Shown here: positions 18,257 through 39,231 of the stretch, piece by piece
Layout of the letters: each line of letters starts with the position of its first letter
How positions within the stretch are numbered: the stretch's first letter is position 1
Assembly (NCBI GenBank): GCA_000333855.2
Contig: CM007336.1
Span: forward strand, 165,347 to 206,531
Length of the DNA stretch: 41,185 bases
Direction: 5' to 3'
DNA from: Endotrypanum monterogeii
Lineage: Eukaryota > Euglenozoa > Kinetoplastea > Trypanosomatida > Trypanosomatidae
Notes under the pieces: model-generated
Database searches by the model: none
Seen by the model: only the letters and a program-made list of their open reading frames with translations
Told to the model about the DNA's origin: nothing
Made by a program: the position numbers and the translations under genes

Positions 18257-19240
18257 TTAAGAAAGCACACTCAAGAGGATGGCCATGCGCATAAAAAGTC
18301 CGTAGCGCATCTGCCGAAAATAAGCGGAGCGCGGGTCGTCGTCGATATCGGTACTGAGCTCATCCACGCGGGGAAGCGGGTGCATGACAATCATCTTCTC
18401 TTTTGCGTGTGCCAGACGATTTTTATTAATCACCAGGGCAGATTTTGAGGTCTCGAAGGCTTTCAGGGCGTCGTTGTCATCCGCCGCGGAGGCAGCGAAC
18501 CGCTCCTTCTGCAGGCGCGTCGCGTAGAGTACGTCGCAGTCAGCCACGATCTCTGGTGTCAGGCCAGAGCTTCGCTCGATCGTGATACCGCGCCTTTCAA
18601 CGTCTGCGGCAACATGGTCCAGCACATCCGTCGGCATCTCCAACCCAACAGGAGCGATAAGGTAAACTTTTTTGAGAGAGAAGTTATGCGTCAGCAACTT
18701 AAATAGCGAATGCACAGTGCGACCCTTCTTGAGGTCTCCAATCAAGGCGATCGTGATACCATCCACAGCACCCAGCTCGGCGTGAATAGTGAACGTATCG
18801 AGCAATGCCTGAGACGGATGCTCACCCGAGCCGTTGCCGGCATTCATAATCGGGTGTGTCGCAACGCGCATCGCCTGCTCCATTGCCTCCTCCTTAGCGT
18901 GGCGAAGCACCAGCACATCACTGTACGAGTCTAGCGTGCGGACGGTGTCCTCCAGTGTCTCGCCTTTGTTCACCGAGGACGTCTCCACTTTGAAATTCAC
19001 CACGCTCCCACCCAACCGCATCATAGCCGCGCAGAAGCTCGACAGCGTACGAGAACTATCCTCGAAGAACAGCGGTGTCATGACGCGGCCGTGCAGTGCA
19101 TCGATCGTCTTGCCCGCATCAATATGTTCCTTCATTGCAAGCGCCAGCTGGATGAGGGCATCGATGTCGGCGCGAGAGAATTGTGTGGCGGAGGCCACAC
19201 TTTTTCCCTTGAGGGTAGAGACAGGGGTGAAGGTGGACAT
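18257..19240 (-). CDS. ATC: Aspartate carbamoyltransferase
   Basis: A 327-residue catalytic-chain-type enzyme from the ATG at 19240. It joins carbamoyl phosphate from CPSII to aspartate, giving carbamoyl aspartate for dihydroorotase. Family motifs are intact: FFEDSSRTLSSF with the carbamoyl-phosphate-binding SSRT at 62-65, the 80s-loop NKGETLEDT with Lys92, NAGNGSGEHPSQALLDT with His141 and Gln144, GDLKKGRTVHSL with Arg174, the aspartate-binding TRLQKERF with Arg242 and Gln244, and MHPLPRVDE (286-294). The length fits a stand-alone trimeric ATC. It is not fused to CPSII or DHO as in animal CAD, and no regulatory chain gene is visible. It sits between OMPDC-OPRT and DHODH in the same transcription unit. 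No targeting signal is seen, so it is presumably cytosolic. Confidence 0.97.
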   Translation of the reverse strand: MSTFTPVSTLKGKSVASATQFSRADIDALIQLALAMKEHIDAGKTIDALHGRVMTPLFFEDSSRTLSSFCAAMMRLGGSVVNFKVETSSVNKGETLEDTVRTLDSYSDVLVLRHAKEEAMEQAMRVATHPIMNAGNGSGEHPSQALLDTFTIHAELGAVDGITIALIGDLKKGRTVHSLFKLLTHNFSLKKVYLIAPVGLEMPTDVLDHVAADVERRGITIERSSGLTPEIVADCDVLYATRLQKERFAASAADDNDALKAFETSKSALVINKNRLAHAKEKMIVMHPLPRVDELSTDIDDDPRSAYFRQMRYGLFMRMAILLSVLS

Positions 19241-25102: not shown

Positions 25103-27349
25103 TCAGCGAATAGCGCAGATCTCAGCACTGACGGCATCCGTTTGATCACGAAGGCGGTCCGCGTTGACTCCGTCCACAGTCTTATCGTTCGTTATAGTCC
25201 ACCATGGGCGAGGAACAGCACGTGGCGCACCTGTGGCAATACAGTCGTCACCCACGCCGCACCCGCTGTCTGTTAGGTTTGGTGTAGCAAGATGGTCCCC
25301 CGCCACGGAACGCCACCGCAGCCGGTGGGCCTGCAGTGGGCGGAAGACGCGATGGAAAAAAAGGACTTCAAAGAAAAACCAGTAGCGAAACTCGTAATAG
25401 AATGGCGCCAGAGCCAATGAAATAGCCTCGGCAGACAACGCTACCTCACGCAGGTCGCCGCCCGCCGAGAGCTGCGAATGTGGATCCGTACCCGTGGCGG
25501 GAGCAACAAGTTTTTTCGGGCCGGGAACCTCCGCCGAAGACGGTTCAGCTGCTCTCTCACGACGAGCAGAGCTCTGAAGCAGCGCGAGACGCCCACGCTC
25601 AGCGAGCACCCGATTAATGTACGCCACTCCCGAATCATCGATTGACTCGGCCAGTCGCGTTGGCGACGTCGCATCCACGCTGCCATTCGAGTCGCTTTGA
25701 TGCTTTTGAGGGGATCGAGTGGTGTTCTCAAATGAAGAACTGCTGCCGACGCACCTCAGTGATGCCCACACGAGAGCAGCAGTAGTACCAGGGGTGTGAG
25801 GCGACGACGGCGACGACGACTGCGCCAGCCAATCATCAAACTCACACTTCCAGAAAAGCTCAAAGGCCGCCTCGGGCAAACCATCACTAGACCAATACGT
25901 TGCGCAATCATCCCCGGTCTTCCCTGCGGTGACCGCTGAGGAAGCAGCTGCAACAGACGCCGTTGATCGTGCGGTCTGGGTGTCGGTGATGTCAGTCGGC
26001 AGGGGGGTGGTGGCCATGTCGCCGCCGCCCAGGGCACGCGGATCATCATTGTGGGTCATTTGGCGTAAGACATGTGGGCGAGGCGGATCAAAGCAACACG
26101 GGGAGAGCAGATCGAGCGCATCGCACAGTGCGGTACGCGCTGGAGACGTCGCAGCCACACAATCCGCGCTCGCGAGCTCATTCAGCCCATCTAGTCGCAT
26201 CTCGCGCTCCAAAGCATCCACAAGCTCCACGCGATATCGCTGCCGTGACCGGACAGACCATAGTTGTTCAATGCGTGGGCGGTAGACCTGACGCACGACA
26301 CGCGCCAAGAGAGATTGCTTACGCTGCTGTCTCTCACGCTCCCCACCCTCCGACTCGCTATGGCAGTCCACTAATGCGTTGCCGACCGCCTGCTGAGCAA
26401 GATGGCGACGCGGTGTGCGAAAGAATCGACGCAAACACGCCGTCTCCAAGTCGCACTCCACAGCGATGCCGTAGTCTATCAAAGAGTTCACCTCACGATT
26501 GCATAACAGAGTGAAGCCCTCCCACACCACGTATATGGTGACGTGAGGCGATGACGCGAGCACCGGATGCAGTGACTCCTCGTCTGTGGCAACTCGAAGG
26601 CCACAAAAAAAGCAAGGGACGCTGCCATGACCCTGCTGGCACTGCGCTGGTTCAATGACCCTTTCCCGTCGTCGTTCTTCCTCAGCTTCGTGTGCGCAGA
26701 GGGAGGCATCTGTGACGCTGTCCCCCTCACTGTCCTCTTGGGAAGCACTGGTGATAATGGTATCGGTCAATGAAATGCCGTGGTGGTCAGGTGCAGCAGA
26801 AACAGAAACGTTCGATGCAGCAAACCCAGATTCACCGACCGGGGTAGGAGACGTGGACTCCGCTGTGGCACGGTGATACTTGCCCAACTCTTGTATACGA
26901 GGCCGCATCTGTGACCACCAAGCGCTCTGCACATACTTTTCAAAGCAGAGCTCGTGAAGCGGTGCTGCACCACTATGAGAGCAGCAATTCTGTTCCGCGG
27001 GCCATGACGCGGTTACGTCCCTCTCATCTGGAAGGCGAACCGAAACCTCTGACACAGCGTGCACCAGCGCCGTCATCCAATGTGCAATAGTGCCATAGTC
27101 AATACACCGGTAGTCTTCGTAGGTGCCTAGCTCTGCAGAAACGTCCTCGAGGAAGAAACTATCTGCGCTGATGGGGTACAGTGGCGAGTTGAGTCTCTTC
27201 GCAAGCTGATGAGCAATGGTCGACTTGCCGCAGGCACTGCCTCCAATCACACCAACCAGCTGAACAGATACACTAACGTTGATGGTGTTCGCAGTGCTTG
27301 GTATCCCCGCTTCGTCCGCAGATGGCTGAGAATCAAAGAGAGAAGACAT
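25103..27349 (-). CDS. P-loop kinase of the uridine / nicotinamide-riboside kinase type, expanded
   Basis: A 748-residue protein from the ATG at 27349. The N-terminal part carries a P-loop GGSACGKST (36-44), then YPISADSFF (58-66), which matches the QDSFY/QDDFF segment holding the catalytic Asp of uridine-cytidine and nicotinamide riboside kinases, then a DYGTIAHWM segment (84-92). A poorly conserved insert (about 100-265, with a CFFC pair at 246-249) follows. Then comes TIYVVWEGFTLLCNREV (271-287), matching the VEGFLL strand of NRK proteins, and a basic lid-like LRRFFRTPRR (306-315). The last 400 residues are mostly Ser/Ala-rich with an aromatic patch at 648-667. Family members are usually 190-280 residues, so this is greatly enlarged. 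Its place among the pyrimidine genes suggests nucleoside phosphorylation, but the substrate cannot be read from the sequence. Confidence 0.6.
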   Translation of the reverse strand: MSSLFDSQPSADEAGIPSTANTINVSVSVQLVGVIGGSACGKSTIAHQLAKRLNSPLYPISADSFFLEDVSAELGTYEDYRCIDYGTIAHWMTALVHAVSEVSVRLPDERDVTASWPAEQNCCSHSGAAPLHELCFEKYVQSAWWSQMRPRIQELGKYHRATAESTSPTPVGESGFAASNVSVSAAPDHHGISLTDTIITSASQEDSEGDSVTDASLCAHEAEEERRRERVIEPAQCQQGHGSVPCFFCGLRVATDEESLHPVLASSPHVTIYVVWEGFTLLCNREVNSLIDYGIAVECDLETACLRRFFRTPRRHLAQQAVGNALVDCHSESEGGERERQQRKQSLLARVVRQVYRPRIEQLWSVRSRQRYRVELVDALEREMRLDGLNELASADCVAATSPARTALCDALDLLSPCCFDPPRPHVLRQMTHNDDPRALGGGDMATTPLPTDITDTQTARSTASVAAASSAVTAGKTGDDCATYWSSDGLPEAAFELFWKCEFDDWLAQSSSPSSPHTPGTTAALVWASLRCVGSSSSFENTTRSPQKHQSDSNGSVDATSPTRLAESIDDSGVAYINRVLAERGRLALLQSSARRERAAEPSSAEVPGPKKLVAPATGTDPHSQLSAGGDLREVALSAEAISLALAPFYYEFRYWFFFEVLFFHRVFRPLQAHRLRWRSVAGDHLATPNLTDSGCGVGDDCIATGAPRAVPRPWWTITNDKTVDGVNADRLRDQTDAVSAEICAIR

Positions 27350-31044: not shown

Positions 31045-32262
31045 TCACTCCTCCGTCACGGCCCGCCCGCGCAGGTGCCATCCCTCGTATGGGGTCCACC
31101 TGCATTTGGAATGAAGGCACTCACCACGGACCACCCACTCACAGCTCAGGTCAAAGCCACGGTTCGGGGCGTCGGACTGGTGCAGTCCAAAAATACGGTT
31201 CGGATTAGTATGCAACACACGCACAACGTCGTCCAGCGTCAACCTGCGACCCTGCTGCTCCGCTGCTACCAGCGTAGACGGCTTCGGAGCTGTGGGGTGT
31301 GGCCAGTGGCCTAACACCACGGTCAGAAGCAGGGGAACCACAACTTCGATGGCTGGCATTCCACTTGGCGGCTGGGTGACGGCATCATATTCGTCCTTCT
31401 CAGCAGCGGTGTGCGGCGCGTGGTCAGTGCCGACGCAGTCCACAGTGCCGTCCAGTAGCCCGGCCCATAGCGCCTCGTGGTGCTGAGGAGGTCGAACAGG
31501 TGGGTTCACTTTCACACGTGCCCCGCAGCACGGGTAATCACCGGTGGTGAGAAACAGGTGATGCGGGGTCACTTCACAGGTAAGCTGCAGCGTCGGGTCG
31601 ACTGCACGGGCCTCTCGGACGGCGTCCAGGCTTTGCGCCGTCGACACGTGCGCGAGGTGGAGCGGTGTGCGGTGCTGTCGCGCCAGAGCGATGGCTTCCT
31701 GCACTGAGGCAACCTCAGACTCTTCAGGGCGCCGCAGCGAGTGCGAAGAAGGGCCATCGTAAGGATGCTGTGCAGCAGCGGCGTTGTTGATCTCTGACTG
31801 CTCACAGTGGGCTACAAGCACGATGGAAAGACGGCCGCAGATCTCAAAACTTTTTGCCACTACAGAGCGGCTCGACTTCATATTCCCTGTAGAATTGTCA
31901 AGGTACAGCTTCAAACCACAGCAGTGCGCCTTGAGCTCCGAGTGTGCTGGGTTCGTCCAGAGCTCTTCTAGCTCTTCCAAGTGCTCTTCGGCCGTGGCAC
32001 CGAAGAAAAAGAAAAGCTGGCAGTCGGCGTGAGCGGTAGCCTTGGCGCGCGCTACCTTGTCTGCCAACGCAGAAAGGCTCTGCGTCGGTGGGTTCGTGTT
32101 GGGCATGTCGCAGGCAACGGTGATGCCGCCGTAGTACGCAGCAGCACTCTCACTAGCGATGTCTGCTTTGTGCTCGAGACCAGGTTCGCGGAAGTGTACA
32201 TGACAGTCAATCAGCGGCGGCAGCTGCACCACTGCCGATGTGGACGAACAGGCAGAAGACAT
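31045..32262 (-). CDS. DHO: Dihydroorotase
   Basis: A 405-residue zinc amidohydrolase from the ATG at 32262, catalysing reversible cyclisation of carbamoyl aspartate to dihydroorotate, between ATC and DHODH in the pathway. Metal-binding and catalytic motifs are present: DCHVHFREPG with His21, His23 and Arg25; DMPNTNPP (52-59); GLKLYLDNSTG with Lys118, the candidate carboxylated lysine; VAHCEQ with His152; LAHVST with His205; CEVTPHHLFL (229-238); and GTDHAPH with Asp280. It is a stand-alone enzyme, not part of a CAD fusion. No targeting signal is visible; the C-terminus (AVTEE) is not a glycosomal signal. It is the next gene downstream of CPSII in the same transcription unit, 1.2 kb away. Confidence 0.97.
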   Translation of the reverse strand: MSSACSSTSAVVQLPPLIDCHVHFREPGLEHKADIASESAAAYYGGITVACDMPNTNPPTQSLSALADKVARAKATAHADCQLFFFFGATAEEHLEELEELWTNPAHSELKAHCCGLKLYLDNSTGNMKSSRSVVAKSFEICGRLSIVLVAHCEQSEINNAAAAQHPYDGPSSHSLRRPEESEVASVQEAIALARQHRTPLHLAHVSTAQSLDAVREARAVDPTLQLTCEVTPHHLFLTTGDYPCCGARVKVNPPVRPPQHHEALWAGLLDGTVDCVGTDHAPHTAAEKDEYDAVTQPPSGMPAIEVVVPLLLTVVLGHWPHPTAPKPSTLVAAEQQGRRLTLDDVVRVLHTNPNRIFGLHQSDAPNRGFDLSCEWVVRGECLHSKCRWTPYEGWHLRGRAVTEE

Positions 32263-33435: not shown

Positions 33436-36400
33436 CTACCACTGGACATCGCTGAAGGAGCCGTTTCCTGGCTGGAACACCTCCTCCAGTTCTTCCTCTG
33501 TCACTAACTGTGGTGCTACACGACGATCGACGGGGTTGCGCACATGCGACAACTTCAAAAATATGATTTCGCCCTGGTGTAGCTCCAACTCCACGACGCC
33601 ACTCACATCACTAGTCAGGTACCGTATCGCCTCGATGGCAGACTGGGTATGCTTTTCCGACAGCTGGCCAGCGGCGATGTTCTGAGATACGTGGCGCGAG
33701 TACATGCGGAAGAGATCCGCAGCAGATCGGTCGAACGAGACGTCGTACAAAAACTGTAAGCCAGCGGAGAGAAGATTCATGCCCGGTGCCTCAAACATGG
33801 CGCCATCGCGAGTGCGAGTGATACCGACACCATTGCGGCCACCGATCTCATTAGCCATCTGCAGTGCCAATAGATGCGTTACCTCAATGCCATTGATGTT
33901 CACACAGCGTGCGCTACGAAATGTGAGAGACACAAACTCGGGCGTCTGAGCGCAATCACGCAGCGGCTTCACAAGCGATGGAGATGGTAAGCTATGTATG
34001 TCATCACAGTAGAATGTGTTGCCGCACACGGAGCTATGCACCTGACCATTGTATCGCATCGTCGCCTGGATACCGTGCGTGCGCAGGAAGCTGATCTGAT
34101 CCGCTGGTGTCTCAAAGTCCTCCATCAGGCGTGGGTCACGCCATGCGTTGTAAACACCCATCTCGGGGCAGTTGATCTGGACGTACTTCTCAAAACCAGT
34201 CTCCTTTTTGTTCCGCTTCGATGCCTGCGCCACCACAGACATGCGCCGCTCACGCATTCTCAGAAGAAGGTGTTTGCCGAAGATGTACCAGCTAAGCTTC
34301 GACAGATGCCAATTGCGGTGCTCGTCGGCGCACTGGCACATGATGAGGTCGAATGCGGCGTCTGCGATTTCAGAGCGTAAGTCGACAACCTCTACTGGAA
34401 CACTAAGAGTCTGGAACTCCTGCTCGATGCGATCGATGTCCGACCCGCCAATGTAGGCGTGGAAGCACGTGATGTCGAGCCCCTCCTGGGCCAGACGCAA
34501 AGCCAACATTTTGCTATCATTATTGTTGGTAATCATCAAACCAATCTTGTGACGAGACAGCATGGCACAGTTATTATTCTCAATCTTATGGTATATCTTG
34601 GGTACATAGTGACGGAAAGGCTCGACTTCGATGGATGTCGTCGGCAGGGCCATACATTCACAGAACATCTTCGCAATGTTCGGCTCTGTTAAGAGGGGAA
34701 TGTTGTAGTCGACGGCGAGACGCCGCACCCAATAGTCTGGCGAGGCCGTCTCGCGAGTGCAGCGACGAAGCACAAAGTCGCGCCTCTTATCTCGAATCTG
34801 AATGACAAGGTCGAACTTCTCCTGCTTCACCACCTCCTCCTCGTACAGTGCGAGGTTGCCGTTGGATACGTCGCCGGAGGGCAACTCGTTTCGCTGGAGG
34901 AGCACCACGCACGGGATGCCGTACTCGCGTAGCACCGCCGCTGTCTTGGCTGTGCAGAATAGACTCAGCCCGCGTTTCACCAAGTGCTGCATGTACGGGC
35001 AGAGCATTTCCGTTTGAGAGTCAACGTCGCTGCTGAAGAACACACCCTTAACGGGCATCTTGAAGCCTTGGCAGAACATCGCCTTCAGGAACACTTCGTG
35101 TTTGTCGCGGCCAAAGACTCCAATTTCACCAGTGGAAGACATCTCCACACCCAGAATAGGGTCGGCGCCGGCAAGGCGGTTGAAGCTAAACATGGACGCC
35201 TTGCACCCGATATGCGTCATCTTGGCACGCTTGATTGGCACGAGGTTCTGGTCCTTGCGCGCCAGAAAGGCGGACACCATCACCGCAGGAAAAGAGATGC
35301 CGAGCGTCTTCGACACGAAGGGCACGGAGCGAGAGCTGCGCACGTTGGCCTCAATCACGCGCAGCTGACCCTCCGCCGTCAACAAAAACTGCACGTTCAT
35401 CGGCCCCACAACGTCAAGCCTCTCGGCAATGCGGTTGACGGAGTCGTAGATACGCTTCATTGTTTCCTTATCGGTATTTTGTGGCGGCAGGAACATGGTA
35501 GCATCGCCCGAGTGCACGCCAGCGTTCTCGACGTGCTCGCAAATGGCGTAGCAAAGCACGCGGCCATGATGCGCAACGATATCGACATCATACTCGGTGG
35601 CGCCTTCGTAGTATTTGCTCACCACCACCGGGTGATCGCCAGAGACCAAAGACGCCTCCTTCAGGTAGCGCGTCACGTCTTCCCTGTTCGCGATGACGGC
35701 CATGGCCGACCCACTCAGCACATAGCTGGGACGCACCAGGGCAGGGTAGCCGACGGTGTCACAGAATTGGTGCACCTGCTCGACCGACGTGGCCGAGATC
35801 CACTCTGGCTGCGGCACCCCGAGTTCGTCGCACATCTTCGAGAACTTGTTGCGATCCTCAGCCATGTCGATGTTTGCTGGGTCCGTGCCGAGAATCGGTA
35901 GTCCACTCTTTTTCAGGCTCAGGGCCATGTTCTGTACGATCTGACCCCCAAGAGATATAACGACACCGCGCACTCGCTCCTTCGTCAAGATGTCGAGTAC
36001 CGTCTCCTCGGACACCTCGTCGAAATACAGCCGATCGCACTCGTCGTAATCTGTCGACACTGTCTCTGGATTGTAGTTGATCAGAATGACCTTATTGCCA
36101 AGTCGGCGCAGCTCACGCGCTACAAGAACACCGCCGTAGTCGAACTCGACGCTGTTGCCGATGCGGTAGACACCGCAGCCCAGTACAGCATACATACGGT
36201 CTGTGAAGGGCACATCATCGCGTTGGGCGTTGTAGGTGGAGTATAAATAGCAGCACTGAGCTGCAGGATACTCGCCGGCGACTGTGTCGATCTGCTTGAT
36301 CATCGGCATCACGTTCAGTTCGATACGACGCGCACGTACGTCGCCGGCGGTGGTTCCACAAAAGTGTGCCAGCTGCCGGTCGGAGAAGCCGTGGGCTTTC

Positions 36401-38961
36401 ATGTTTAGGAGGTATCCATGGGGCATCTCAGATAATTTATTGGCATAGAGGGAGGTGGTGGCCTTAGATAGGCGAACCAACCGCTCCAGCTTGTACAGGA
36501 AGAAGCGTGTGATTTTTGTCATCTGGTACAGATCTTCCACGGTGAGACCGTCCTGCAGGGCGCAGCAGAGGGCAAACAAGCGGTACGGTGTCGGGTGGAG
36601 GATGTGCCTCATGTAATCGAAATCAGCGTTACTGAAGCGATCTGGGATGGAAAAACCGGTGTAGCTCGGGTCCACCATGCGCATCGCCTTTTGGAGGGCC
36701 TCTTCAAAGGTGCGTCCAATGGACATGACCTCGCCGACGCTCTTCATCATGGAGCCGATATCCTCGCTTACCATGTTGAACTTATTGAGGTCCCAGCGTG
36801 GCATCTTGACGACAATGTAGTCCATGCTAGGCTCGAAGCATGCCATCGTTGTCTTGGTGACTCCGTTAGTGATCTCAAACAACCCCTTGCCTAGTGCAAC
36901 CTTGGTGGCAACGTGGGCCAGCGGGTAGCCGGTGGCCTTGGAGGCCAGTGCCGATGAACGTGACAGACGCGCGTTGACCTCAATGACAACGTAGCGATGG
37001 CTGAAGGGGTTCAAGCCGTACTGTATATTACACTCGCCGACGATACCCAAGTGGCGGATGATCTTAATGGAAGCGCTCCGAAGCATGTGAAACTCATCGT
37101 TGGTGAGCGTCTGTGACGGCGCGACGACGACGGACTCGCCCGTGTGGATGCCCATAGGATCAAAATTCTCCATGTTGCACACGGTAATACAGTTGTCGTA
37201 GATATCGCGCACCACTTCGTACTCGATCTCCTTCCACCCAGCCACGCTTTCCTCCAGCAGTACCTGTGGTGACGCGGCAAGCGCGACCTCGACCTTGTGA
37301 CAGAGCTCCTCGACATTCTCGACAATGCCACTGCCCTGCCCGCCAAGGCAGTAGGCCGCACGGACCATCATCGGGAAGCCAATCTGTTTGCTCGCCACCA
37401 CAGCCTCCTGCACAGACTTCACAGCAGCAGACTTGGCCACCTGCTCGTTGATCTGCAGCAATGTGTCACGGAACAGCTCGCGGTCCTCCGTCACGGCAAT
37501 GACAGACACCGGCGTACCGAGCACCTGCACGTTGTACTTCTTCAAAATGCCGAGCTCGTCTAGCTTCACGCCACAGTTGAGAGCTGTTTGGCCGCCCCAG
37601 CCGAGGAGAATACCGTCAGGCCGCTCCTTGCTGATCACCCGCTCCACCGCCTCCACTGTAAGCGGCACAAAATAAATGTGATCCGCCATCTCGTCGTCTG
37701 TCTGCACGGTGGCAATGTTTGGGTTGATGAGCACCGTCTCGATTCCCTCCTCGCGCAGAGACTTGAGGCACTGGGAGCCGCTGTAGTCGAACTCGCCTGC
37801 CTGGGCAATGACGATGCCACCCGCACCGAGCACCAGGACCTTGCGCGGCTTAAACTTAGCCATCTCCCTGACCTTGGACTCCCTCACACGGCGCACGTAC
37901 TCGTTGAAGAGGTACTCCGTGTCCTGCGGACCACAGCGCCCCTCCGGGTGAAACTGAACACTGCAGAAAGGTTTTGTCTTGTGCCACAGACCTTCATTAC
38001 TGCCGTCGTTCGAGTTTGTAAAGTATTCCTCCCACTCATCGGGTGACAGGGTCTTGAAGTCCACGGCGAACCCATGGTTCTGTGTGGTGATGACAACCTG
38101 CCCATCTCGAGTGCACTTGCATGGCTGGTTCTGCCCACGGTGGCCATATTTCATTTTGTACGTCGTGCCGCCAGCAGCGAGGCAGAGCATCTGGTTACCC
38201 ATGCAGATGCCAAAGATGGGCTTATCCTGCTGGAGGGCCCAGCGCACGCTGCGAATAGTGCTCGTGCACATCTGCGGGTTTCCAGGACCGTTGGAGATGA
38301 ACAGACCGTCGTATACCTCTGTGGTGATGTCCCAGTCGTGCGGTACAACAGTCAATGTAACGTCGTGCTTTAATAAGCAGCGCAGCGTGTTCAGCTTCAC
38401 CCCCATGTCGATCACAAGAATGCGGAGCGTGCCGTGGCCGTGTGTGATGCGTGTCTTGGTGCTCACCTCTGCCACGAGGTTGCGGGTGTTGGGGTCCATG
38501 AAGGGCACATCGTTGCCAGCCACAACCACCTTGCCGAGCGCTGTACCCATGTCCCGCAGCTTCAGCACAATACTGCGAGTGTCCACCATCATCATGCCAG
38601 GAATCTTGTGCTCGCGCAGCCACTCGCCGAGGCTCTTACACATCTCCCAATGGTCCGGCTGGTCGCAATACTCCTGCACCACCACGGCACTCACGTGAAT
38701 CTTTCCATTCATACTTTCAAAGTACTTGGTCACACCGAAGCAGTCCTCCTCGATCGGCGGCACACCATAGTTCCCTACCATCGGTGCCGTCAGCACGAGG
38801 ATCTGACCCTGATACGACGGGTCCGTGAGACTCTCCGGGTAGCCCACCATTCCCGTCGCAAACACCACCTCACCAGCCACGCTTTCTTCATAGCCGAAAG
38901 AGTACCCCTTGAAGTGCTCGCCGCCGTGCAGCACGAGCTCCGCTGCGATGTGCGTCTCCAT
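33436..38961 (-). CDS. CPSII: Glutamine-dependent carbamoyl-phosphate synthetase II with C-terminal argininosuccinate-synthase-like domain
   Basis: An 1841-residue enzyme from the ATG at 38961 (METHIAAELV); an upstream in-frame GTG is not used. It makes carbamoyl phosphate from glutamine, bicarbonate and two ATP, the first step of UMP synthesis. The glutaminase half (about 1-360) has FGICMGNQ with Cys253 and FHPEG with His338 and Glu340. The first ATP-grasp synthetase half (about 370-920) has VLVLGAGGIVIAQAGEFDYS and IEVNARLSRSSALASKATG. The second (about 925-1295) has AVLGCGVYRIGNSVEFDYG and IEANVRSSRSVPFVSKTLG. An MGS-like allosteric domain follows (about 1300-1445). Residues about 1470-1830 resemble argininosuccinate synthase but lack its active-site motifs (separate finding). 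Unlike animal CAD, ATC and DHO are not fused. The length is close to the Leishmania CPSII I remember and some 300 residues longer than the T. cruzi one. Confidence 0.97.
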   Translation of the reverse strand: METHIAAELVLHGGEHFKGYSFGYEESVAGEVVFATGMVGYPESLTDPSYQGQILVLTAPMVGNYGVPPIEEDCFGVTKYFESMNGKIHVSAVVVQEYCDQPDHWEMCKSLGEWLREHKIPGMMMVDTRSIVLKLRDMGTALGKVVVAGNDVPFMDPNTRNLVAEVSTKTRITHGHGTLRILVIDMGVKLNTLRCLLKHDVTLTVVPHDWDITTEVYDGLFISNGPGNPQMCTSTIRSVRWALQQDKPIFGICMGNQMLCLAAGGTTYKMKYGHRGQNQPCKCTRDGQVVITTQNHGFAVDFKTLSPDEWEEYFTNSNDGSNEGLWHKTKPFCSVQFHPEGRCGPQDTEYLFNEYVRRVRESKVREMAKFKPRKVLVLGAGGIVIAQAGEFDYSGSQCLKSLREEGIETVLINPNIATVQTDDEMADHIYFVPLTVEAVERVISKERPDGILLGWGGQTALNCGVKLDELGILKKYNVQVLGTPVSVIAVTEDRELFRDTLLQINEQVAKSAAVKSVQEAVVASKQIGFPMMVRAAYCLGGQGSGIVENVEELCHKVEVALAASPQVLLEESVAGWKEIEYEVVRDIYDNCITVCNMENFDPMGIHTGESVVVAPSQTLTNDEFHMLRSASIKIIRHLGIVGECNIQYGLNPFSHRYVVIEVNARLSRSSALASKATGYPLAHVATKVALGKGLFEITNGVTKTTMACFEPSMDYIVVKMPRWDLNKFNMVSEDIGSMMKSVGEVMSIGRTFEEALQKAMRMVDPSYTGFSIPDRFSNADFDYMRHILHPTPYRLFALCCALQDGLTVEDLYQMTKITRFFLYKLERLVRLSKATTSLYANKLSEMPHGYLLNMKAHGFSDRQLAHFCGTTAGDVRARRIELNVMPMIKQIDTVAGEYPAAQCCYLYSTYNAQRDDVPFTDRMYAVLGCGVYRIGNSVEFDYGGVLVARELRRLGNKVILINYNPETVSTDYDECDRLYFDEVSEETVLDILTKERVRGVVISLGGQIVQNMALSLKKSGLPILGTDPANIDMAEDRNKFSKMCDELGVPQPEWISATSVEQVHQFCDTVGYPALVRPSYVLSGSAMAVIANREDVTRYLKEASLVSGDHPVVVSKYYEGATEYDVDIVAHHGRVLCYAICEHVENAGVHSGDATMFLPPQNTDKETMKRIYDSVNRIAERLDVVGPMNVQFLLTAEGQLRVIEANVRSSRSVPFVSKTLGISFPAVMVSAFLARKDQNLVPIKRAKMTHIGCKASMFSFNRLAGADPILGVEMSSTGEIGVFGRDKHEVFLKAMFCQGFKMPVKGVFFSSDVDSQTEMLCPYMQHLVKRGLSLFCTAKTAAVLREYGIPCVVLLQRNELPSGDVSNGNLALYEEEVVKQEKFDLVIQIRDKRRDFVLRRCTRETASPDYWVRRLAVDYNIPLLTEPNIAKMFCECMALPTTSIEVEPFRHYVPKIYHKIENNNCAMLSRHKIGLMITNNNDSKMLALRLAQEGLDITCFHAYIGGSDIDRIEQEFQTLSVPVEVVDLRSEIADAAFDLIMCQCADEHRNWHLSKLSWYIFGKHLLLRMRERRMSVVAQASKRNKKETGFEKYVQINCPEMGVYNAWRDPRLMEDFETPADQISFLRTHGIQATMRYNGQVHSSVCGNTFYCDDIHSLPSPSLVKPLRDCAQTPEFVSLTFRSARCVNINGIEVTHLLALQMANEIGGRNGVGITRTRDGAMFEAPGMNLLSAGLQFLYDVSFDRSAADLFRMYSRHVSQNIAAGQLSEKHTQSAIEAIRYLTSDVSGVVELELHQGEIIFLKLSHVRNPVDRRVAPQLVTEEELEEVFQPGNGSFSDVQW
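33472..34554 (-). other. Argininosuccinate-synthase-like domain of CPSII (domain annotation)
   Basis: This stretch encodes residues about 1470-1830 of CPSII. Matches to argininosuccinate synthase in order: an N-terminal strand HKIGLMITNNNDSKMLALRL where ASS has its PP-loop (SGGLDTS); FGKHLLLRMRERRMSVVAQ for the ARPCIARKQ helix; VYNAWRD...ISFLRTHGI for the APWR...YAKQHGI segment; SSVCGNTFY for the WSMDENL segment; TPEFVSLTF with a following NING for the TPDILEIEF and N-G segment; NEIGGRNGVG (conserved glycines, NEVAGKHGVG in human ASS); and FEAPGMNLL for the YEAPG/YETPA segment. The PP-loop serine-glycine-glycine and the TGKGNDQVRF motif are not conserved, so catalytic activity is unlikely. 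Confidence 0.75.
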
Positions 38962-39231
38962 CCTTGCCCTCGAATTCACTTCCTTTTCTTTATTGTTTGT
39001 TTGTGTTTGCCCCCTTTTTTTTTAATGCACTGAACCCTTTAAATTTGCCCTTCTTGTTCGTCGTGCGCTGAGAGCTTAAGTGGGGGGGTTTTAGCGGGAT
39101 ATGGTGACAATGACGCCTGTTTTCCTTTTTTGTTCCGAACACGTCAACCTCTATTTGTGAGATCGACAGCGACGAAGAGAGCGAAGCAAACCGATCGTTA
39201 GGCGGGAAGAGGACCACCAACGCGGCCACAA

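Follow-up and report, generated by a model that had tools for sequence, protein, structure and literature searches.

A degenerate argininosuccinate synthase domain at the C-terminus of carbamoyl phosphate synthetase II in Endotrypanum monterogeii and other kinetoplastids

The present analysis concerns a stretch of 41,185 nucleotides from the trypanosomatid Endotrypanum monterogeii (assembly GCA_000333855.2, contig CM007336.1, positions 165,347 to 206,531), which in its entirety is referred to as the window. It encodes a carbamoyl phosphate synthetase II (CPSII) whose last approximately 370 residues form a complete domain homologous to argininosuccinate synthase (ASS), so that a pseudoenzyme originating in another pathway makes up about one fifth of the protein. 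As judged from its sequence, this domain almost certainly lacks ASS catalysis. Our best explanation overall, to which we assign a probability of about 0.55, is that a complete pseudo-ASS was acquired in one old fusion and that it now acts as an assembly module for CPSII.

Results

Architecture of CPSII

CPSII is encoded on the reverse strand, as are the other genes of the window given with coordinates here, in a single uninterrupted frame (33436–38979) of 1847 codons when counted from a mechanical GTG, or 1841 when counted from the first methionine (coding sequence 33436–38961); residue numbers of features follow the former count. Residues 1 to approximately 1430 correspond to an ordinary glutamine-dependent CPSII, in which a Pfam scan detected amidotransferase, carbamoyl phosphate synthetase (CPS) and MGS domains and for which the models TIGR01369 (1539 bits) and TIGR01368 (440.3 bits) each score far above their cut-off. 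The fused glutamine amidotransferase and the two-half synthetase that characterize such enzymes are both found, together with the motifs GICMGN and HPEG. The small-chain and class I glutamine amidotransferase domains extend over residues 15–362 (37894–38937; PF00988, PF00117), the CPS halves over residues 375–1320 (35020–37857; PF25596, PF02786, PF02787, TIGR01369) and the MGS-like domain over residues 1327–1431 (34687–35001; PF02142). From there, the frame continues via a conserved linker with FRHYVPKIYHKIENNNCAML (residues 1445–1475, 34555–34647) into the pseudo-ASS core, a domain of some 340 residues which is defined by profile matches and predicted fold (residues 1476–1812, 33544–34554), and, after a variable hinge (residues 1813–1830, 33490–33543), into a short conserved C-terminal tail, EEVFQPGNGSFSDVQW (residues 1832–1847, 33439–33486). 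A preliminary description, made from the sequence alone, had placed the domain at 33472–34554; its start coincides with that of the core, whereas its end falls 11 codons short, so that 11 residues of the 16-residue tail are omitted.

Homology to argininosuccinate synthase

The relationship of the domain to ASS is evident over its whole length, both in profile comparison and in the predicted fold. A profile derived from four bacterial ASS sequences gives the window protein 49.3 bits, whereas 200 shuffled versions of the domain reach at most 0.1 bits and residues 1–1440 alone –2.2 bits, which rules out chance similarity; since the four references were chosen via their match to a domain of the family, the scores are perhaps slightly raised, and the references are too few to place a donor. 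The NCBI model TIGR00032 (argG) recognizes the protein with 77.1 bits (E 1.5e-21), below its equivalog cut-off of 268.2, and PF20979, which covers the C-terminal half of ASS, does so with 36.3 bits at a cut-off of 27. PF00764, the Pfam model of the N-terminal half, has no match to the window protein at E ≤ 1 and is listed for five of 27 relatives. In a search of solved structures, all eight distinct sequences at E ≤ 1 are ASS. With the same domain profile, the nitrile synthetase ArtA (9leh, 9lei) is found at an E of 5e-6 compared to 5e-32 for ASS, and folds beyond those compared in the structure searches may also resemble the domain. The segments on which the preliminary description had based its assignment (NNNDSKM, AWRD...HGI, SSVCGNTFY, TPEFVSLTF...NING, NEIGGRNGVG and FEAPGMNLL) are all present and in order, and the assignment itself withstood the two analyses that had been named as capable of overturning it, the profile comparison and, with the reservation due to a model, the structure prediction.

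Loss of the ASS active site

The relationship in sequence does not extend to the residues that mediate catalysis in ASS, whose fate was followed by motif counts over 30 domains, with positions numbered as in ASS. The PP-loop SGGLDTS, which in N-type enzymes binds ATP, is intact in none of them. In the window, it is replaced by the remnant TNNNDSK (residues 1484–1490, 34510–34530), and neither Thr 16 nor Ser 17 is retained in any domain. Each of the two glycines of the loop is lost in 28 domains, and its aspartate survives in 21. In the stretch TGKGNDQVRF, which interacts with aspartate and citrulline, Asp 124 is retained in no domain, Asn 123 in two and Arg 127 in four; here, in place of HGATGKGNDQVRF, the window protein carries QASKRNKKETGF, which is one residue shorter than its counterpart (residues 1585–1596, 34192–34227). 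By our own matching of positions, a single residue is absent in all 30 domains at a glycine that in ASS contacts ATP (PMC3475689), with the exact site of the gap being a choice of the alignment. Similarly, the citrulline loop ENR..MKSRG.YETPG has lost the section Lys 276 to Gly 279 (KSRG) in all 30 domains, leaving DGAMFE at the site where the ASS loop FVGMKSRG was deleted in the window protein (residues 1725–1730, 33790–33807). Within this loop, Glu 269 is retained in nine domains and the citrulline-binding Tyr 281 in 17, with phenylalanine in the window. Overall, out of 150 positions that are identical in the four bacterial ASS, 25 are retained in at least 90% of the domains, whereas 81 persist in no more than 10%, a number that depends on the alignment, which is poor in the SxDxN region. 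The proposal of a fusion between CPSII and an ASS whose catalytic motifs were lost is thus supported, as is the reading of the degenerate PP-loop and of the unconserved TGKGNDQVRF stretch.

Conservation of linker, core and tail

To describe constraint, column entropies were calculated from 29 of the 30 rows, with P0027, a homologue whose gene model is without the conserved tail, omitted here as well as from the tree. Three alignments were used, covering seven of the 30 domains (A1), 11 of the domains (A2) and 27 of the 30 proteins (A3). The mean entropy amounts to 1.30 for the core, 0.63 for the linker (residues 1458–1475), 2.11 for the hinge and 0.39 for the tail (residues 1834–1847), and it is thus the linker and the tail rather than the former active site that are the most conserved parts. 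The tail, which can be loosely matched to the Y...GFI tail of ASS, follows the motif F.PG[ND]G[ST]F[STG]D..W, which ends 29 of the 30 proteins and is recognizable from Parabodo to the window. Most PP-loop positions are variable. For 24 positions that we take, from ASS structures, to have contacted ligands, the mean entropy of 1.27 shows no stronger conservation than at random positions of the core (1.30, P 0.44). With the motifs broken in all 30 domains, the suggestion that the domain might have kept binding of aspartate, citrulline or nucleotide finds no support.

Between the window protein and its counterpart from Trypanosoma brucei (P0026), the identity is 50% in the domain, 44% in the MGS domain, 79% in the CPS part and 81% in the tail. 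In comparisons of segments, which cover 14 of the 29 relatives, the MGS and pseudo-ASS domains are the least conserved large parts of CPSII, and the latter is more conserved than the former in eight cases, equal in two and less conserved in four.

Distribution and origin of the fusion

A search with the domain as query identified 27 proteins, all of which contain CPS domains. Named carriers belong to Leptomonas, Herpetomonas, Strigomonas, Angomonas, Phytomonas and Trypanosoma (including T. brucei, T. vivax, T. congolense, T. conorhini and T. melophagium) and include Parabodo caudatus, and a second search, with the Parabodo domain, added two metagenomic proteins. Since both searches were queried with the domain and none with the CPS part, a CPSII devoid of the domain could not appear; within this scope, no Bodo saltans, prokinetoplastid, diplonemid, euglenid, Leishmania or T. 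cruzi was found among rows with organism names. The extra length of CPSII, which had been noted for Leishmania, is not specific to that genus, as it is found in Trypanosoma, Phytomonas, Strigomonas, Parabodo and others. The automatic annotation of Pfam already flags the C-terminal ASS domain in 26 of the 27 relatives. For two solved sequences of mitochondrial CPS1, the match to the CPSII of Parabodo ends at residue 1434, short of the ASS part. One of the homologues, P0013 (2872 residues), carries about 1000 extra residues ahead of CPSII, with the window protein aligning from residue 1022, and is perhaps a fusion of gene models.

Four sequences on the Parabodo side (of which P0029 is named Parabodo, with 'bodonid' being our own label for P0028, P0030 and P0031) score 90–105 bits on the bacterial ASS model compared to 33–75 for the other 26, and in two of them the PP-loop reads GLDS. 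This milder decay resembles a gradual departure from a functional ASS, although an intermediate that is still intact was not encountered. In a tree of 29 domains and the four bacterial ASS, the named rows of Trypanosoma, of Phytomonas and of Strigomonas-Angomonas each group together, and 25 rows are separated from the four on the Parabodo side with 100/100 support; those four may or may not form a single clade. The simplest account would be one fusion predating the split between Parabodo and the trypanosomatids, followed by vertical descent. In two insensitive searches for free-standing relatives of the domain, 7994 candidates were scored without a hit at E ≤ 0.001, and of 136 pattern matches in prokaryote genomes not one could be confirmed; tblastn with the domain did match ordinary ASS genes in 68 plasmid records.

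Discussion

Our study describes a pseudo-ASS domain in CPSII, for which a structural or docking role appears, at about even odds, to be its main role. The dead domain retains the predicted ASS fold and ends in a conserved peptide of its own. It might pair CPSII chains or, alternatively, dock the separate aspartate carbamoyltransferase (ATCase) and dihydroorotase, at the position in the chain where animal CAD bears these two domains covalently. The finding that former ligand positions behave like random ones while linker and tail are strongly conserved lets us prefer such a role over that of a sensor of ASS ligands. The proposal is also consistent with the organization of ASS as a homotetramer with a C-terminal oligomerization domain and tail (PMC3475689), and with the report that CPSII of T. 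cruzi co-precipitates ATCase and dihydroorotase in non-covalent form (PMC5803862). A doubtful elaboration would regard the assembly as a kinetoplastid, non-covalent counterpart of CAD, in which the captured dead ASS serves as tetramerizing hub and the tail recruits ATCase and dihydroorotase, to assemble the first three steps of pyrimidine synthesis.

Several observations weigh against an assembly role. The tail shows pLDDT values of 32–36 and was not placed in either of two predicted models, the domain alone and the second CPS half with the domain. The linker is also low in confidence in the latter model, whose pTM is 0.50, and a docking site could consequently not be identified. In particular, the tail was not seen to dock on the second CPS half, which at this pTM is a weak negative, and all predictions are of single chains. 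T. cruzi, the species of the co-precipitation, is absent among the named rows of our searches, and CPSII of Crithidia fasciculata was reported to be separate from ATCase, as were the L. donovani enzymes found to be separable on a column, which counts against a tight complex in all species (described in PMC5803862). In all 14 relatives, conservation of the domain lies below that of the CPS part, and the four cases in which it falls below the MGS domain point in the same direction. Finally, Phe 1506, His 1507, Gln 1585 and Ser 1587 are invariant among former ligand positions, which would fit a new ligand.

These invariant residues provide the main opening for a role as sensor of another ligand, where the rebuilt ASS pocket would bind a different small molecule such as a pyrimidine nucleotide to regulate CPSII allosterically. 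New residues are fixed in 29 of 29 rows at three former ligand positions (His at Thr 35, Gln at His 116 and Ser at Thr 119) and recur at two others (Ser at Thr 16 and Lys or Arg at Ser 17, each in 27 of 29). Nevertheless, we consider this explanation unlikely, since the 24 scored positions are jointly no more conserved than the random core, and since CPSII still contains its MGS domain, through which CPS is usually regulated. The regulation of the Crithidia enzyme, with stronger inhibition by UDP and CDP than in its mammalian counterpart and an effect of PRPP unlike the mammalian one (PMC5803862), would be in line with such a sensor. It is similarly improbable that the domain is no oligomerizer and acts as a docking hub only, with tail and linker binding ATCase or dihydroorotase in a non-covalent analogue of CAD. 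The strong conservation of both elements, the fact that they were not placed in single-chain models, the separate genes for the two enzymes in the window and the co-precipitation in T. cruzi would all be accounted for, but the predicted models, being of single chains, contain no partner interface and the described complex in T. cruzi contrasts with the separability in Crithidia and L. donovani.

An accidental ASS fusion that decays without a role would explain why 81 of the 150 positions identical in bacterial ASS are kept in so few domains, with the alignment dependence noted above, and lineages devoid of the domain are invisible in a set of 30 sequences found through it. However, a neutral passenger would hardly have remained long and open across several trypanosomatid genera and Parabodo, with a domain that is more conserved than the MGS domain in the majority of 14 pairs and a tail that is still recognizable between Parabodo and the window, and we thus regard it as very unlikely. 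Least probable of all would be a new catalytic activity within the ASS superfamily, as found in ArtA, mediated by other residues; the PP-loop glycines are each lost in 28 of 30 domains, Asn 123 in 28 and Asp 124 in all, and most positions of the PP-loop are variable.

The described domain can be compared to known systems. From ASS itself, it is distinguished by its broken ATP, aspartate and citrulline motifs, its score far below the equivalog cut-off, its location behind CPSII and a different C-terminal tail. CAD and fungal Ura2 consist of a CPSII with C-terminal dihydroorotase and ATCase, with the dihydroorotase of Ura2 being inactive. The window CPSII shares with both the presence of additional domains C-terminal to the same core; in contrast, it bears an ASS homologue, and dihydroorotase and ATCase are encoded by genes of their own. 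Another dead enzyme kept as assembly part of a pyrimidine enzyme is found in the class A ATCase of Pseudomonas aeruginosa, where an inactive dihydroorotase chain is described as required for ATCase activity (PMC7053772), although this is a separate chain with another fold from another pathway of origin. Pseudoenzyme parts in pyrimidine enzymes are already known, and the one derived from ASS is new as far as our searches reach.

Among the matches listed in a search of the open-access literature, we found no description of an ASS domain in CPSII, in agreement with the preliminary description, which knew of none; its extra length may be mentioned in papers on the kinetoplastid enzyme outside open access. 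Section 6 of PMC5803862 names amidotransferase and CPS domains only in its account of L. donovani CPSII, and the same layout is given in the relevant passage of PMC8718007. The importance of the enzyme is underlined by null mutants of T. cruzi and L. donovani, which grow poorly and, in case of the latter, are less infective (PMC5803862). Among trypanosomatids, ASS was stated to occur only in Leishmania (PMC3475689), a statement that is supplemented by a dead homologue, which T. brucei, among others, carries within its CPSII. Our work also gives a testable form to the question of how the pyrimidine enzymes, which are separate in these organisms, are kept together.

Arginine-branch and pyrimidine genes

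The preliminary description had linked the domain to arginine synthesis via carbamoyl phosphate. This connection is weak in the organism under study. Searches of its 30.7-Mb assembly, which is possibly incomplete and where only the best first-pass candidates were scored, revealed no stand-alone ASS, with the CPSII domain providing the sole matches to TIGR00032 and PF20979, and no match to argininosuccinate lyase, and the sole match to ornithine transcarbamylase is the ATCase of the window. The only PF00764 match of the genome (L001, 454–2424, reverse strand) was rejected as ASS, since it is a PP-loop GMP synthase (NF000848, 440 bits, above cut-off). With none of the three enzymes of the branch found, a sharing of carbamoyl phosphate with it seems inapplicable here, and a corresponding role of the domain was set aside within the limits of the assembly. 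The ASS of L. donovani (LdASS) belongs to the same superfamily and is likewise from a trypanosomatid, but is described as an active enzyme encoded by its own gene (PMC3475689), a type of gene that was not found in this genome. The situation in Leishmania, where the ornithine transcarbamylase and ASS steps are described in the absence of de novo arginine synthesis (PMC5775291), cautions against generalization.

ATCase (18257–19240; TIGR00670, 308 bits, above cut-off), dihydroorotase (31045–32262, near CPSII; TIGR00857, 282 bits at a cut-off of 279) and OMP decarboxylase-OPRT are encoded by separate genes within the window. A stretch at about 28.8–29.5 kb translates to X, and frames crossing it are uninformative. 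The pyrimidine genes also include among them a frame for a protein of 748 residues (25103–27349), of which uridine kinase models match the first approximately 70 residues only, with an E of 2e-6; for the remainder, neither the Pfam nor the NCBIfam scan provided a match.
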